From a virus, in IMG/VR virus record IMGVR_UViG_3300046538_000302, positions 1-36,338 of that record: a DNA stretch of 36,338 nt, one strand, 5' to 3'. Below the pieces are notes generated by a model, which worked only from the letters and a program-made list of their open reading frames with translations, did no database searches and was not told the origin of the DNA. The position numbers were made by a program, and so were the translations under genes. The first letter of the stretch is position 1. Every line of letters starts with the position of its first letter. Of the stretch, positions 15,203 through 21,217 are shown piece by piece.

Positions 15203-16204
15203 TCAGGTCTCGCTTGGTTTGTTCTTACGGAATTCATCAGGGTCTACGCCTAGCTGCCTACACATGGCCTGTTCTTCGGCATTGAGCGCAGTGGCAGAAA
15301 GCTCGGGTTGTCTGCCGTGCATTCCGGACAATCCGGCAACAATGGGAGCTGCCGCTATGTAGGCGTTGAAGCGTTGTAGTCCCTCGTAGTCCTGGCACAT
15401 GGCGCGGTGGTATTCGACGGTGGCCGGAGTGACCTTGCCAGACTGGGTGGCGGCAGTGATCGCCAGCTCCACGGCCTTTTTGTGTGCGTTGGTGTTGACG
15501 GTGAGCAGCTGCTGTTCGGCGTTGGTAGCGCGCTGCAAGAGGTTGTCGTAGTCCCCACGCGGAACGAACCGTTCGAGGTTGGTGTGTTCGGTGTTAAGCG
15601 CCTGGGCGTTCGCCTTGAGCTCGGTGGCGGCCGTCATGGCCTGTTCTTGCGTGGCCGTCTCGGGCAAACCGAGCAAAGCCAGAAGCGCAGCAGGAAGTTG
15701 CACGGGCGTGATCTCCAGAGTGTTGGAATTGAGGGAGTCTTGATTGAGCGCGGTCAGCAGGAAGTTAGGCTTGTTGGTCAGGCCAGCGCTGACTAGGTGG
15801 ACGACGCGACGGGTGTCTGGGTCGTAGTCGAAGACAGGAGAGAGAAAACGGTATTCACGGCTTTCCACCTGCAGCGCGGCGCGGGGCGTCCACTCGACAT
15901 GACCCCAAAGAGCGCCGCCGTCGCGGATGTCGAGTTGCTTGATCCAGGCACCGGCCGGGGCGTCTTGCCCTTTTGGGGCGCGATGTTGGGTGGCATGCTC
16001 CCAATCAATGGGCAACTCAATGGCGCGGGCTGTGAAGCGGGAATGGACGTCGGCGGCGCAGGCGTCATCGAAGACCCAGGTTCGGCCGTCACGGCCTGTC
16101 ACTACAGGGCCAGCGGGGATCAGCTCGACCCACGCGGGGGCCTTGCCATCGGTGAGTTCGACGGGGCTGAAGATTTCAGAGTTGAATGCGAGTTGGGTGT
16201 TCAT
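15203..16204 (-). CDS. I: Head maturation protease and scaffold, Mu gp32 (gpI)-like
   Basis: A 333-residue protein with the gpI layout. The first 160 residues are the protease (PVELTDGKAPAWVELIPAG, then IDWEHAT with the Asp/His of the active site, GHVEWT, and SREYRFLSPVF with VSAGLTNKP). The second half is an Ala/Gln/Glu-rich helical scaffold (about 180-270) with a conserved C-terminus. In Mu the scaffold is also made separately (gpZ) from an internal start. An ATG at the start of MTAATELKAN, near residue 190, is a candidate for that here, with only a weak AGG upstream. Confidence 0.87.
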   Translation of the reverse strand: MNTQLAFNSEIFSPVELTDGKAPAWVELIPAGPVVTGRDGRTWVFDDACAADVHSRFTARAIELPIDWEHATQHRAPKGQDAPAGAWIKQLDIRDGGALWGHVEWTPRAALQVESREYRFLSPVFDYDPDTRRVVHLVSAGLTNKPNFLLTALNQDSLNSNTLEITPVQLPAALLALLGLPETATQEQAMTAATELKANAQALNTEHTNLERFVPRGDYDNLLQRATNAEQQLLTVNTNAHKKAVELAITAATQSGKVTPATVEYHRAMCQDYEGLQRFNAYIAAAPIVAGLSGMHGRQPELSATALNAEEQAMCRQLGVDPDEFRKNKPSET

Positions 16205-16269
16205 GCCGCCAGTTTGGCGGCATGGGGGGAATGGGGTATTTCAGGGTGATTAAAGATACTTCACTAAGT

Positions 16270-17298
16270 TTACAGCGCTGGGATTGCCCTTATACGAGTC
16301 ATGACGTTGTCCCCGTACGGAGTAAGAGTCCAGTAAGTGGAGGTGTTTTTTGTAGAGCGTCCTTTTAGGCTTTTAGTAATTAGCCCAAGCGCACGTAGCT
16401 GGATAATGATCGTATGGAAGTCATCCATCCATGCATCAAAGCCTGTAGAACTGGTGTCCCGACTTTTAGATGCGTTCATTGATTCCTCTTGGTGTAACTC
16501 AAAGGCTACTTTATCTAAAGACTCCTTGATCATTCCTTCAGTTGCCTCGTCAATCATTACTGGAGCGATGGAACCAAAAAGATTGTCCCAGCTTATCAAC
16601 GAGGATTTATGTGTCTTCCTCATCTGCCCTGTTTCAGAGCGAGCGTAGTAGTCATATGAAAGAGGAAACTCATCATCACCTTTCGCTAGGTGCGAGGCGT
16701 TCTCAGGCTCAGACATATTCGTTGATTTTAACTTGGTTTCCAGCTCTTCAATCTTTCTTCTCAGCTTCAGCATCTCTTCTGATGCACTCTGTGATGGGAC
16801 TTGATCAGCCCTAACCCAGCCGATAGCAGGCCTACTTTTGATGAGCTTGACAAGACTACGACTTACTTGGCTCCCAAGGTCTGCTGGAGTGTTCCACATC
16901 CGGCAGAGCTTAGTACGAACCAAGCTGCGGAAACTTTCAAGGCTTTGCAACCCTGCTTCTGATTTCTCACTATGCTTAGCCGGAAGCGTGTCAGGATCAC
17001 TATGGATAAAGGAAATAATAGGCTTACCGATTTCCGATGCGTAACGGTATTCCATCTCTGTGTAGCTAACGCCGTCTGGGCCTATGGACCCGTAGCGACC
17101 AGCAATTACCAAAACGTAGTAGTCGCTATCGTCGATTAATTTTTTTATTAGGCTCCATTGATCCTCATCTGCTGCAGGGAACAGCTCCATCCCTGAAGGC
17201 ATACAGTCCAATTCGAGCAGAGCTTGCATGATTTCCTGCCTAGCATCCTGCAAGTCAACAAATGTCGAACTGACAAAAACCTGATAACGCTTTTCCAT
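16270..17298 (-). CDS. DUF4062-domain cargo protein, TIR-like fold, possible defence gene
   Basis: A 342-residue protein that is not part of the Mu backbone. Residues 5-95 are a DUF4062 domain: YQVFVSSTFVDLQDAR, then MELFPAADEDQW, YYVLVIAGRYGS, SYTEMEYRYA and GKPIISFI. This resembles TIR/deoxyribosyltransferase-like domains, and Glu81/Glu83 in TEMEY sit where such folds carry the catalytic Glu. A short coiled coil follows (about 172-192). The C-terminal 60 residues (LRALGLI...YWTLTPYG) look like a winged helix. It lies between gpG and protease I, separated by 148 and 65 bases, and is clearly more AT-rich than both. NAD hydrolysis or another abortive-infection effect is a hypothesis; no partner gene is present. 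Confidence 0.8.
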   Translation of the reverse strand: MEKRYQVFVSSTFVDLQDARQEIMQALLELDCMPSGMELFPAADEDQWSLIKKLIDDSDYYVLVIAGRYGSIGPDGVSYTEMEYRYASEIGKPIISFIHSDPDTLPAKHSEKSEAGLQSLESFRSLVRTKLCRMWNTPADLGSQVSRSLVKLIKSRPAIGWVRADQVPSQSASEEMLKLRRKIEELETKLKSTNMSEPENASHLAKGDDEFPLSYDYYARSETGQMRKTHKSSLISWDNLFGSIAPVMIDEATEGMIKESLDKVAFELHQEESMNASKSRDTSSTGFDAWMDDFHTIIIQLRALGLITKSLKGRSTKNTSTYWTLTPYGDNVMTRIRAIPAL

Positions 17299-17446
17299 TC
17301 GCAGCAGTGCTCCACGCTCGATTTACTTAGCACGACTCCGATTTGGGTCCGCGGTAAGCTTTGACGCGAATCTAACGTATGTCTAACGCAGATCGCCAGC
17401 GCTGATGTTCTCACGCCATGTAATAGTGGCCGACACTGCCCAGATG

Positions 17447-18022
17447 CTACTGTGGCTCATCAATGGCGATAGCTTCAGTCAGGTAGTCACACACGATCTC
17501 TAAAATTTCGATTTCATCCTCCGAGGACAGCCCCAGAAAAGGCCGTGCCGTTATGTCGGCCGAATGAGCCCCCCATGTCACCCACTGCGCAAAGTTCGAT
17601 TGCCGCTTCTTCACAAACCGATTCCCCACCGATCCGTCCTTGCCCTGACGGAAGTAGACCTGCTGCGAGCTGGCCGCGTGCTGAATGTTGCCTCCGAACT
17701 GATGGATGGCGCCGTACGGGCGGTCGGTGCCAAAGGCGAGTTCGTTGCTGCTGACCTGGTGTCGCAAGGTGTCTTGGAGAGTTCCGGCTTCTCGAAGGGT
17801 GCGGGTGCCGCGTTTACGAGCTAGGGTCGAGGGTGCAAGCGGTGCCCAAGGCGAGCCGTCCGGGGCGACCTTTTGGCGGAAGCGGGAGTCGGTTGACTGG
17901 TGCAGGTACTCGGCGATGTCGTTGAGCGGGGTGGTGAGGTCTTCAAGGTGTTCGCCCAGCTTGGTGAGGGCTTTGCCGACTTGGCTTTGGTCGAGTGTTA
18001 TTTCAAGCATTGCGCCGGGCAT
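17447..18022 (-). CDS. G: Virion morphogenesis protein, Mu gp31 (gpG)-like
   Basis: A 191-residue protein of the phage virion morphogenesis (Mu gpG) family, needed for tail completion or head-tail joining. Markers are FRQKVAPDGSPWAPLAPSTLARK near residues 48-70 and RPYGAIHQFGG near 101-111. The C-terminal segment has RPFLGLS followed by a helical end. The upstream 105 bases contain three hairpins. AGGAG 6-7 bases before ATG 18022 sets the start; the next ATG four codons later (MLEITL) is possible. Confidence 0.88.
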   Translation of the reverse strand: MPGAMLEITLDQSQVGKALTKLGEHLEDLTTPLNDIAEYLHQSTDSRFRQKVAPDGSPWAPLAPSTLARKRGTRTLREAGTLQDTLRHQVSSNELAFGTDRPYGAIHQFGGNIQHAASSQQVYFRQGKDGSVGNRFVKKRQSNFAQWVTWGAHSADITARPFLGLSSEDEIEILEIVCDYLTEAIAIDEPQ

Positions 18023-18098: not shown

Positions 18099-18129
18099 CC
18101 CCGGCGTGACAGCGTCGGGGCTTTTTATT
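18099..18129 (+). terminator. Rho-independent terminator-like hairpin, rightward
   Basis: CCCCGGCG / CGTCGGGG (8 pairs including one G-U, 6-base loop) followed by CTTTTTATT. This is a textbook intrinsic terminator on the plus strand, although both flanking genes read leftward. It would stop antisense transcripts entering the MuF gene. On the minus strand the same stem is preceded by an A-run and followed by no T-run, so leftward transcription should continue into gpG. Confidence 0.6.
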
Positions 18130-19393
18130 ATTCGCGTCGATAGAGCAGCACCCCCAGACGCAGTTCATCCAGGTAGGCTTCGCTGTCCGCGACAAAGCCG
18201 GTTACCCCGTCCCAACCGTCACTTCCCACTTCAAACACCGCCAATGCAGGCGCCGGTTTGCCTTCTACGTCGAAGCGCGCCAAATATCGACGCCGCACGA
18301 CTGCCTTTTGCTGGGCATAAAGCCACTCCAGCCTGACCCATACTTCATCCGGATCGCGCAACGCTTGCGCTACCAGTAGCAACGTTTGTTCGCGCCCGCG
18401 TTTTTGCACCTTCAGCTGGCCGGTTTTCTTAACGGTAAACATTTGCGGGCCGATCACGACTCCGTCGCCGGTGACATCTTTGAACAAGACGGGTTTTTGT
18501 TCGGTGGCACCGAACTCGCCAAGGAAGCAATCAACGTACTGTTGATCAGTGAGGCCTGGTGAGAGCAGTCGATCTGCTGCTACTTGCCTCGGTGGCAGTG
18601 GGGGCAAGGTAGGACGCCGATTGGGCAGCCCCGCACCATGTGCGCTGGTGGGCTTGCCGTCCAGTTCAGGCAGAGGCTCATGGGCGCGTAGTGGCGGGAC
18701 CGCGGTGATCAGTCGAGACTGGCCTGGCGCGTATTCAAAACCCGGGTCGATACCCTTCGGGACGCGCACGGTATGGGGGCCGTTGGGGCTGTTCTGGCCG
18801 ATAACGCGGTCTTCCCACTCGATGGCTGGCGCCTCGCTCACCTTAAGGCCACGCCGTTCAACGTCGCGCTGGCTGAGCATGAACTTCTTGCATTTGCAGC
18901 CCCAGCCATTTTGCGGGGTGTGGGTTGCCCACCACGGGGCGTCGAGCGGTAGAACAGTATTGTCCCAGGATTGGTGTTCCGGCCTTGGATGGCGACTGTC
19001 GCCGTGCTGGTACAGCCCGTATGGGCGTTGCTTGCGAAGCTCTGGGTCTGCCATCTGTGCCTCGCGACCGGCATTGTAGGACTGCCGTAGATTGGTTTCC
19101 CATATGACGTTCGTGCGCCAGCCGCGCTCTCCTTTGTACTGCCAGCCGTGGTTGATGACGGTGCGGTCGAACTCCTTGCGGAATTGTTCAAGTGTGGTGC
19201 CTTTAGCGATAGCTTTCTCGACGGCGCCCCGCAGATCGGCTAGCAGCTCGCGCTTGATGGCGCCTGCAATGACGAAGGCATGGTCGTGTTCAGCTTTGTA
19301 AATGTCCGTCCAAGAGCGACTTGGCAAGTCGAGCTTTGCTATGAAAAACCGAATTTGGTGTTCAAAAGCAATTGGGTCTGGAGATGCTTGCAT
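18128..19393 (-). CDS. MuF head protein with C-terminal nuclease-like domain
   Basis: A 421-residue Mu gp30 (F)-type minor head protein. The MuF domain covers roughly residues 55-180: HGW...GWRTNVIWETNLRQSYNAGR and the cluster APWWATHTPQNGWGCKCKK with its NGWGCxC motif. A Pro-rich linker follows (about 235-270). Residues 275-420 resemble the phage barnase/EndoU/colicin/RelE-like (PBECR2-type) nuclease domain fused to many MuF proteins, with a basic beta-rich core. MuF is packaged in the head, so such domains may be delivered with the DNA. The enzymatic activity is inference from resemblance. No immunity gene is evident next to it. Confidence 0.82.
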   Translation of the reverse strand: MQASPDPIAFEHQIRFFIAKLDLPSRSWTDIYKAEHDHAFVIAGAIKRELLADLRGAVEKAIAKGTTLEQFRKEFDRTVINHGWQYKGERGWRTNVIWETNLRQSYNAGREAQMADPELRKQRPYGLYQHGDSRHPRPEHQSWDNTVLPLDAPWWATHTPQNGWGCKCKKFMLSQRDVERRGLKVSEAPAIEWEDRVIGQNSPNGPHTVRVPKGIDPGFEYAPGQSRLITAVPPLRAHEPLPELDGKPTSAHGAGLPNRRPTLPPLPPRQVAADRLLSPGLTDQQYVDCFLGEFGATEQKPVLFKDVTGDGVVIGPQMFTVKKTGQLKVQKRGREQTLLLVAQALRDPDEVWVRLEWLYAQQKAVVRRRYLARFDVEGKPAPALAVFEVGSDGWDGVTGFVADSEAYLDELRLGVLLYRRE

Positions 19394-19466: not shown

Positions 19467-19679
19467 ATGAGCAACTCGAATGATGTATCCGGCCCTGATG
19501 CAGGAAAACCTGGTTGGATTAAAGGGTGGGGGGTGGTCCGTAGCGCTCCTTGGCATTTTGTTGGTATTTATCCGACAGAATCTGAGGCACGTGCCGTGCT
19601 TAGTGAGCAGGAAGAAGGCTTCGATGTGCGCTTCGGTTCGAACCAAACAGGGACGGACAATTTTTTAAGCTTTGACTAA
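19467..19679 (+). CDS. Small plus-strand accessory protein, unknown function
   Basis: A 70-residue soluble, acidic protein. It starts MSNSNDVSGPDAGKPGWIKGW and contains APWHFVGIYPTESEARAV and FDVRFGSNQTG, reading like a small one-domain beta-alpha-beta fold. AAGGA lies 7 bases before ATG 19467. It is opposite in strand to portal and MuF, converges with the portal gene, and overlaps its stop codon by 3 bases. No signal peptide, membrane segment or DNA-binding motif is seen. The position between packaging and head genes and the opposite strand mark it as a cargo gene; I do not recognise a function. Confidence 0.7.
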   Translation: MSNSNDVSGPDAGKPGWIKGWGVVRSAPWHFVGIYPTESEARAVLSEQEEGFDVRFGSNQTGTDNFLSFD

Positions 19680-21217
19680 ACGCCAGCCACAATCTCACTC
19701 CTTCCAATGATGCTTGCTAATGACAGCCCATCCGCTATTGCAGCTGAAAGCTGGTGGGATGTCATTGCCGGATAGGCTTGGATCAAATTATCTCCGAACT
19801 CCTCTAAGCTATTTGCCAACTCGAGCCTTTCTTGAATCTGATCAATCATTGAATTCAGATGGGCAGATGTAGCTCGCTCCTGAATTGAGATCTGACTGTC
19901 AATTAAATCGGGAATAGATGCGTTCTCTCTGTTCGTAGCCTGCAAGAGACCTAATTCTTTGGATTTTGAAGTACTTCCCAGCAAATCCGCTCCCTTCGCC
20001 GGCTCAGGCAAATTCAATTTGTCCCGTATCACTGACTGCTCAACCTTCAACCCAAGCGGCACGAGGTCCTTCAACGCATCGATCAACAGCCGAGTATCTT
20101 CCGGCTGTGGCACGTCAATGATCAGCTTGGGGTACGGCCGTCCTGGTGCAAAATTGAGATCGCACCAAGGCCGAACAAAATATCGATTGAGAGTGTTTGA
20201 CTCCGCTTTGGCATCAGCCTGCAGCAGATCGAGCCGCACCTCGTTGTGGACTTTGGCTTGGGCCATGCTCGAGCCGTCGTCGCTGGACATGGTCTGGCCG
20301 ACAACGGCTTTGCTGACTTGCTTATCCCACCACTCAGCCAACCCTTTGAAGAAGTCGCCCGCGCCGCTGACGTTGGCGGCTTGAGTGAAGTCGATGCGCA
20401 TGCTGTCGGGGATGACGGCGGCGGCATCGCTGCCCAGGTTGGCGACGGCGGACATCAGGGTGTTGATGTCGTCTTTGCTGGCGCCGGGGCCATAGCGCCC
20501 GACGCGCATGGGCATGCCGAAGATATCGGCGAAGCCCATCCAGTCTTTCCAGGTCCAGGCTTTGCACATATAGGCGACGGCTGCGAGGCGCGCCAATCCG
20601 CCACGAATCGGCAGGCCTGAGCGGATGCGGGGTAAATGAACGATGAATTTGTAGGGTTCCAATGCGAGGCCGTGGAACGGGTCTGCGTCATCGAGCAGGC
20701 GCAGCTCGCGGCCTGTGTTGCGGTCGAACTGGAAGAAGCGCTGATCACGAGGCTCGAAACGCAGCGGGTTCCACGTCTTGCCGCTGCGGTCCCAGATGAT
20801 TTCGGACACCGCGTAGCCTTTGCCCACCGCGTCGGTGAGGTCAGCCTGCAGTTCGCCAAACTCCGGCGAGCCTACGACCTCGCTCAAGGCCGCGGCGCGT
20901 CGAATGTCTTCAGCGTCGTCGCTAGCGGCCTCGATACGAATGATCAGTCCGGCGACGGCGAGTTTTCGCGTACCGATGACCGAGGCGTAGTGCAGGTCGC
21001 GTTCTTCCATTTCTTCGGCGAGCGTGAGGTAGTCAGCGGCAGAGCCTTCGGCGGCGGCCTCAAGAATACTGGCGAGACGCTGTGGCGTCAGGCCTCGCGC
21101 CACGGATGGATGCCATACCTGGCGCACGCCAGTGGTACGAGCTGCGGCAAGTTCCTCGGTGAGTTTGTCGTAGTGAATCGGGCGACCGAACTGATCGACG
21201 ATAGAAGATTGGGCCAT
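19676..21217 (-). CDS. Portal protein, Mu gp29-like (DUF935)
   Basis: A 513-residue portal of the DUF935 (Mu gp29) family, the ring through which DNA enters and leaves the head. Typical stretches are DQFGRPIHYDKL at the start, LAEEMEERDLHYASVIGTRKLAV, GYAVSEIIWD, and RGGLARLAAVAYMCKAWTWKDWMGFADIFGMPMRVGRY. ATG 21217 overlaps the terminase stop (TAATG). The last 110 or so residues are encoded by visibly more AT-rich DNA than the rest, next to the accessory gene, possibly a recombination edge. Confidence 0.9.
   Translation of the reverse strand: MAQSSIVDQFGRPIHYDKLTEELAAARTTGVRQVWHPSVARGLTPQRLASILEAAAEGSAADYLTLAEEMEERDLHYASVIGTRKLAVAGLIIRIEAASDDAEDIRRAAALSEVVGSPEFGELQADLTDAVGKGYAVSEIIWDRSGKTWNPLRFEPRDQRFFQFDRNTGRELRLLDDADPFHGLALEPYKFIVHLPRIRSGLPIRGGLARLAAVAYMCKAWTWKDWMGFADIFGMPMRVGRYGPGASKDDINTLMSAVANLGSDAAAVIPDSMRIDFTQAANVSGAGDFFKGLAEWWDKQVSKAVVGQTMSSDDGSSMAQAKVHNEVRLDLLQADAKAESNTLNRYFVRPWCDLNFAPGRPYPKLIIDVPQPEDTRLLIDALKDLVPLGLKVEQSVIRDKLNLPEPAKGADLLGSTSKSKELGLLQATNRENASIPDLIDSQISIQERATSAHLNSMIDQIQERLELANSLEEFGDNLIQAYPAMTSHQLSAAIADGLSLASIIGRSEIVAGV

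Follow-up and report, generated by a model that had tools for sequence, protein, structure and literature searches.

The gene that lies between gpG and the protease/scaffold gene I in the window, as we call the whole stretch of DNA analysed (a virus record of 36,338 bases), is best explained as an antiphage gene of the Swarozyc (DUF4062) family, which a Mu-like Pseudomonas prophage carries as cargo. We put the probability of this reading at about 0.78. By extension from published work on the Klebsiella pneumoniae protein KpSwz, the protein would sit in the lysogen as an inactive oligomer, would sense the portal of an invading phage and switch on its NADase, and would destroy NAD+, halting the infected cell ahead of phage multiplication (abortive infection). 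The NADase activity, the portal trigger and the abortive outcome are all carried over from KpSwz. The coordinates of the locus are collected in Table 1.

Table 1. Features in and around the gpG–protease I slot, in window positions.
Feature	Position	Strand	Remark
Protease/scaffold I, Mu-like	15203..16204	-	downstream border of the slot
Gap, DUF4062 gene to protease I	16205..16269	-	65 bp
Swarozyc-family gene	16270..17298	-	342 aa, ATG start; DUF4062 TIR-like NADase domain, stalk, AUX sensor
Winged helix-turn-helix end of AUX, codons 291-342	16273..16428	-	AlphaFold models, fold matches
AUX domain helices, codons 239-290	16429..16584	-	variable; AlphaFold models
Beta-hairpin, codons 207-238	16585..16680	-	KpSwz portal-anchor equivalent, hypervariable; predicted strands 210-220, 226-236
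Helical stalk, codons 161-206	16681..16818	-	predicted helix 170-194
DUF4062 TIR-like domain, codons 1-160	16819..17298	-	Pfam, AlphaFold, fold matches
Glu83 codon	17050..17052	-	candidate equivalent of KpSwz catalytic E97; alignment and invariance
Gap, gpG to DUF4062 gene	17299..17446	-	148 bp
Two-copy element GCGTTAGACATACGTTAGATT, 11-bp period	17369..17389	-	found in closed and occupied slots alike
gpG (tail completion / neck; Phage_tail_S)	17447..18022	-	upstream border of the slot
gpF-like minor head protein	18128..19393	-	C-terminal PBECR2 nuclease domain (PF18810, residues 290-419, E 3.9e-28)
Portal-F gap	19467..19679	+	AT-rich, GC 0.48; 70-aa ORF on opposite strand
The phage's own portal (Portal_Mu)	19676..21217	-	candidate self-trigger

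The original prediction had placed a real DUF4062 gene here, and the open reading frame, the Pfam match (PF13271, residues 6-87 of the 342-aa protein, E 1.8e-28), a phrog_15411 match spanning the whole protein (E 6.6e-109) and the neighbouring genes agree on it; the motifs FVSSTFVDLQDAR and TEMEY are both present. One strong match was found among PDB entries, KpSwz (10wc_A), which covers residues 2-339 of 342 (phmmer, E 2.6e-65). Swarozyc, an antiphage system that consists of one gene, takes KpSwz (structures 10wc, 11cq and 11cv) as its type protein; the preprint describing it, of May 2026, shows that DUF4062 proteins are TIR-like NADases (PMC13174449). KpSwz guards E. coli by abortive infection, for which both E97 and the auxiliary domain (AUX) are required (PMC13174449). 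The portal of phage Bas14 binds the auxiliary domain and turns on NAD+ cleavage; KpSwz holds on to it by flexible modules that differ along the portal ring (PMC13174449).

Other model collections add little to this assignment. DUF4062 alone scored above the Pfam cut-off, with no match to a TIR/ThsB profile of canonical TIR defence (Thoeris ThsB, SpbK); an NCBIfam scan of the protein returned nothing useful, and PADLOC, searched in a 2023 release that predates Swarozyc, gave no match up to E 1. The family is spread over many phyla, bacterial genomes included, and a relative at E 1e-30 or better occurs in 12 of 399 Pseudomonas species. The DUF4062 relatives found were just two distant ones in the phage collection, and mostly partial ones in the plasmid collection. 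That the gene is a new member of Swarozyc, carried as prophage cargo, is well supported. The single-gene sensor and killer that had been predicted holds up as an architecture and mechanism class, and its description as an undescribed function has been overtaken by the Swarozyc preprint (PMC13174449), because a full-length relative is now characterised as an antiphage NADase.

The TIR-like domain is 48% identical to that of KpSwz. Glu81 and Glu83 had been named as possible catalytic residues, and both are invariant in 22 relatives; every invariant residue of that set is present in the window protein. Using a numbering offset of 13 for KpSwz (checked on W238/Y239, chain positions 225/226), Glu83 aligns with chain position 84 of the PDB entry, an alanine in the deposited E97A protein. 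Of the two glutamates, Glu83 is therefore the catalytic candidate, as the likely counterpart of KpSwz E97.

Structure prediction agrees with this layout. An AlphaFold model of the full-length protein, built from 22 sequences (mean pLDDT 83.6, pTM 0.48), has an alternating beta/alpha domain (residues 1-155) followed by a long helix (170-194); beyond these come a beta-hairpin (210-236) and a winged end rich in helices, in line with the coiled coil and winged helix that had been read from the letters. The first domain resembles DNPH1, MilB and TIR domains (VIA-align Z 11-14 over about 110-150 residues), as expected from the TIR/deoxyribosyltransferase-like fold proposed for it. Modelled separately, AUX residues 200-342 gave a hairpin and winged helix at higher confidence (pLDDT 90.8, pTM 0.84), with resemblance to the winged helices of PadR, MarR, RosR and MukF (Z up to 8.7). 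The predicted stalk and AUX hairpin/winged-helix layout is the same as that described for KpSwz. The Foldseek library used ends in April 2026 and does not hold KpSwz, so the structural tie to it runs through sequence. By homology, the winged-helix end is probably a portal-binding part rather than a DNA-binding domain.

To judge by kinship, the host genus is Pseudomonas, since prophages with portals 72-81% identical to that of the window occur in 13 of 399 Pseudomonas species. We gathered relatives of the phage in IMG/VR via protease I, gpG and the portal, and compared the gap that follows gpG. Among 73 distinct G–I slots, 41 hold no substantial gene (most are 203-294 bp long), and 32 hold one main gene each (144-409 aa). 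The cargo keeps the operon direction in 31 of 33 occupied slots, the window counted. A defence-linked domain or model was matched by 18 of the 32 slot genes, some of these matches lying below Pfam cut-offs: DUF4062/Swarozyc (n = 5, plus the window), HEPN (n = 5), deoxyribosyltransferase/TIR-like with a further C-terminal part (n = 4), PDC-S42 (n = 2), TIR_2 (n = 1) and DUF2971, which is PADLOC PDC-S31 (n = 1). A Pfam Abi_alpha match for one slot family was far below cut-off (E 0.099) and was excluded from the count. The survey that had been proposed thus did find other defence-type genes in the slot. In the Pseudomonas genomes examined (n = 13), eight slots are closed and five occupied, one of them by Swarozyc (L304).

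In Mu-like prophages of Pseudomonas the G–I gap serves as a slot for cargo. It had been taken as normally closed in Mu, which is right for Mu itself, where the gap measures 196 bp and contains an annotated strong gyrase cut site; in Pseudomonas Mu-like phages it is often occupied. The same gap is the anti-CRISPR region of Casadabanvirus (PMC4378225), and Ab30 and MP22 of that genus carry cargo in it.

Besides Swarozyc, the slots with candidate defence cargo (deoxyribosyltransferase/TIR-like, HEPN, TIR_2, PDC-S42 and DUF2971/PDC-S31) are L025/L031/L034/L097, L026/L077/L082/L094, L033, L058, L065/L191 and L186. The remaining 14 of the 32 slot genes had no usable match. Recurrent genes of this kind (L035/L036/L037/L052/L184/L297/L299, L024/L042/L043/L047, L038, L051, L070, L177 and L185) are possible undescribed systems; several unmatched slot genes have a hydrophobic N-terminal stretch resembling a membrane helix. 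Elsewhere in the head region of the window, we note the nuclease domain of the gpF-like protein and the AT-rich portal-F gap (Table 1); the 70-aa ORF of that gap had a relative in none of the fetched loci.

In composition and spacing the gene stands apart from the phage, as had been noted: its GC is 0.463 against a mean of 0.573 for the window, with gaps on both sides (Table 1). GC this low is found in just 0.3% of equal-sized stretches, and GC3 is 0.481 against 0.58-0.71 in 13 other phage genes. A GGAG lies 11 nt ahead of the ATG (17310-17313). A search for sigma-70-type promoters, which leaves other promoter types open, found none in the gpG–DUF4062 gene gap. The gene is co-directional with the late/head operon and, given that direction, may be expressed late, alongside the phage's own portal.

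We measured variation as mean pairwise identity among seven G–I slot copies of the gene. The TIR domain (75%) and the winged helix (71%) are the most alike, followed by the stalk (62%), whereas the hairpin and the helices after it fall to 28% and 34%, respectively. In one pair of copies (L006/L007) the TIR domain shows a dN/dS of about 0.02, with dN rising tenfold across residues 207-290, and in another (L003/L004) the TIR domain has no amino-acid changes against six synonymous ones. The gene is therefore under selection, which is purifying in the TIR part of the slot copies. A degraded or silent passenger, which the GC below that of the phage and the lack of a recognised promoter might suggest, is accordingly a very improbable account: the ORF is intact, the invariant residues are all in place, and purifying selection on the TIR part is strong.

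The fastest-changing part of the slot copies corresponds to the portal-contacting part of KpSwz. A hypervariable AUX segment (residues 207-290) set between a conserved TIR domain and a conserved winged helix is as expected of an arms-race sensor. AUX is only about 15-27% identical between the window protein and KpSwz. The portal-anchor pair W238/Y239, as described for KpSwz at the tip of its hairpin, aligns with Glu/Thr in the window protein, in a hypervariable part where the alignment is uncertain; two slot copies (L002, L304) have a Trp near the anchor position, again with uncertain alignment. Because these aligned residues are Glu/Thr, the trigger may differ from that of KpSwz. The same NADase and abortive outcome could then be set off, via AUX, by another late protein of the invader (head, terminase or tail). 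Such a trigger would fit the near-unalignable residues 207-290 of the slot copies and the Glu/Thr aligned with the anchor pair, and has a parallel in DSR2, an antiphage protein of comparable kind that is reported to recognise the tail tube (PMC11087589). We nonetheless regard it as rather unlikely, since the predicted fold elements of AUX match those of KpSwz, and the KpSwz modules are flexible, so that sequence change alone is compatible with a portal trigger.

If the portal is the trigger, the phage carries the sensor in the same operon as a portal of its own. Swarozyc occurs in 5 of 70 portal-bearing rows and requires five changes on the portal tree, no fewer than with shuffled labels. Sister phages with portals 95-97% identical hold unrelated cargo in its place: the portals of L304 (Swarozyc) and L153 (HEPN) are 97.1% identical, those of L006 and L143 96.5%, and those of L002 and L297 95.8%. 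On the Swarozyc protein tree the slot copies lie close together, with a single origin neither shown nor rejected (AU p 0.80). In the portal alignment we found no column that separates carriers from non-carriers, and adaptation of the portal to Swarozyc was set aside for want of such carrier-marking residues. Given the five changes and the near-identical portals with and without it, the gene behaves like a cassette exchanged between phages, and the portal bears no sign of adaptation to it.

These distributions also bear on a quite different function, in which the protein belongs to the late programme of the phage itself, for example as an NADase for lytic growth or a protein tied to assembly, and not to defence. 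The place of the gene in the head operon, in the same orientation and 65 bp ahead of protease I, would suit such a role. The idea is nevertheless improbable in view of the close relatives, most of which are without the gene, of the unrelated cargo in sister phages, and of the relatives across many phyla and in bacterial genomes. Conserved presence between G and I, as for an ordinary head-operon gene, was not found among the relatives, in keeping with the original prediction.

For the Swarozyc reading, the phage must owe its tolerance of its own portal to the hypervariable sensor part, to timing or to a counter-factor, because carriers and phages that lack the gene have near-identical portals and cannot be told apart by any portal column. 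The Bas14 portal (11cq_A) is a DUF4055 protein with no alignable similarity to the Portal_Mu of this phage; a copy adapted to foreign portals might therefore fail to see that of its own phage. Alternatives would be low late expression, or a counter-factor as in Tab/anti-Tab; we saw no counter-gene to Swarozyc in the window. As a tentative proposal, held at somewhat less than even odds, the protein would be a portal-triggered suicide NADase whose sensor is tuned to ignore the portal made from the same operon: the portal itself would be unchanged, and self/non-self discrimination would reside wholly in the hypervariable hairpin, swapped as a cassette among phages with near-identical portals.

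The gap that hosts the cargo also contains a conserved repeat with an 11-bp period. The pattern GCGTTAGA-N3-GCGTTAGATT is present in nearly every slot of the Pseudomonas group, usually 64-82 nt past the gpG stop, and occurs once in the window and at one site per phage (for example L084, L098, L314:2140-2157 and L318:2822-2839). Only 10 of 399 Pseudomonas genomes have the exact pattern, once each; all 10 carry this prophage type, and the distances between pattern and portal fit the G–I slot. A reversed control pattern was absent from the 399 genomes. Ab30 and MP22, in which protease I is just 27% identical, have the pair too. The sequence was not found in Mu, Vibrio or Shewanella phages; the gap of the Vibrio and Shewanella phages, like that of B23, contains different repeats at 11-bp spacing, each of weak significance by itself.

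Because the strong gyrase site of Mu lies in the same gap, a reasonable guess is that the repeat is a gyrase site; the competing reading takes it for a late promoter of protease I. In Ab30, the 37-bp transposition-free segment proposed as a gyrase site (PMC5977238) is located just after gpG and not at the repeat. As a border for cargo insertion the repeat was rejected: it is present in closed slots, and cargo is found on either side of it (L051, L070, Ab30, MP22). Between the repeat and protease I, closed slots (for example L084, L088) and the 3′ end of L042 and L043 contain a palindrome, CCATTCTCTACGTATAGAATGG, a possible operator or terminator that was not seen in the slot of the window.

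Swarozyc is also carried by other prophages. Four P2-like viral contigs (L009, L010, L011, L013) have the same or a similar gene. The gpA and portal neighbours were examined for L009, where the gene is flanked by gpA and the portal gene Q, convergent with Q and 36 bp from it (L009:6001-8109); in P2, gpA-gpQ is a known defence hotspot (PMC9122126). In a Mu-like prophage of Verrucomicrobia, protease I is preceded by an ion channel gene, a TIR gene and a Swarozyc gene (L270:7389-11050), which together make up a small island of defence genes in this slot. The family is found in defence-type neighbourhoods, with other defence-type genes in sister slots, copies in the P2 hotspot and the TIR gene of L270.

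Compared with known systems, the window gene resembles KpSwz in its DUF4062 TIR-like domain, the putative counterpart of the catalytic Glu, the predicted stalk and hairpin plus winged-helix AUX, its single-gene form and full-length homology. The two differ in setting: KpSwz is at home in a chromosomal defence island (PMC13174449), whereas the window gene belongs to a Mu-like prophage and lies near that phage's own portal gene. SpbK of Bacillus subtilis ICEBs1 is likewise borne by a mobile element, a TIR NADase that causes abortive infection on meeting the late protein YonE of SPbeta (PMC12847820, PMC11984713). The likeness drawn here is one of presumed mode of action; TIR and PADLOC models gave no match to the window protein, and no family link was found. 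Tab/anti-Tab of Pseudomonas phage JBD26 is also late-operon defence cargo of a Mu-like Pseudomonas prophage that has to spare its own phage, but its slot lies between terminase genes, it blocks tail assembly and its counter-protein is known (PMC10884400).

The anti-CRISPR locus of Casadabanvirus (RGP G) shares the gpG–protease I slot, the low GC and the exchangeable small genes (PMC4378225); it holds genes against host defence, in contrast to the presumed defence gene of the window, and the cargo of Ab30 and MP22 is upstream of the conserved repeat rather than downstream as in the window. The P2 gpA-gpQ hotspot (PMC9122126) is similar in placing defence cargo beside the late genes of a temperate phage, with Swarozyc copies in P2-like contigs, and differs in the phage family, the window's phage being Mu-like.

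What one genus of Pseudomonas Mu-like phages uses as its anti-CRISPR region is thus, in relatives of that genus, a slot for single defence-type genes. With several occupants of no known function, the G–I slot is a place to look for new single-gene systems. A putative portal sensor inside a portal-making phage makes testable how the prophage spares itself on induction, and near-matched natural pairs, with portals 95-97% identical and with or without the gene, are available for this question of self-alarm.
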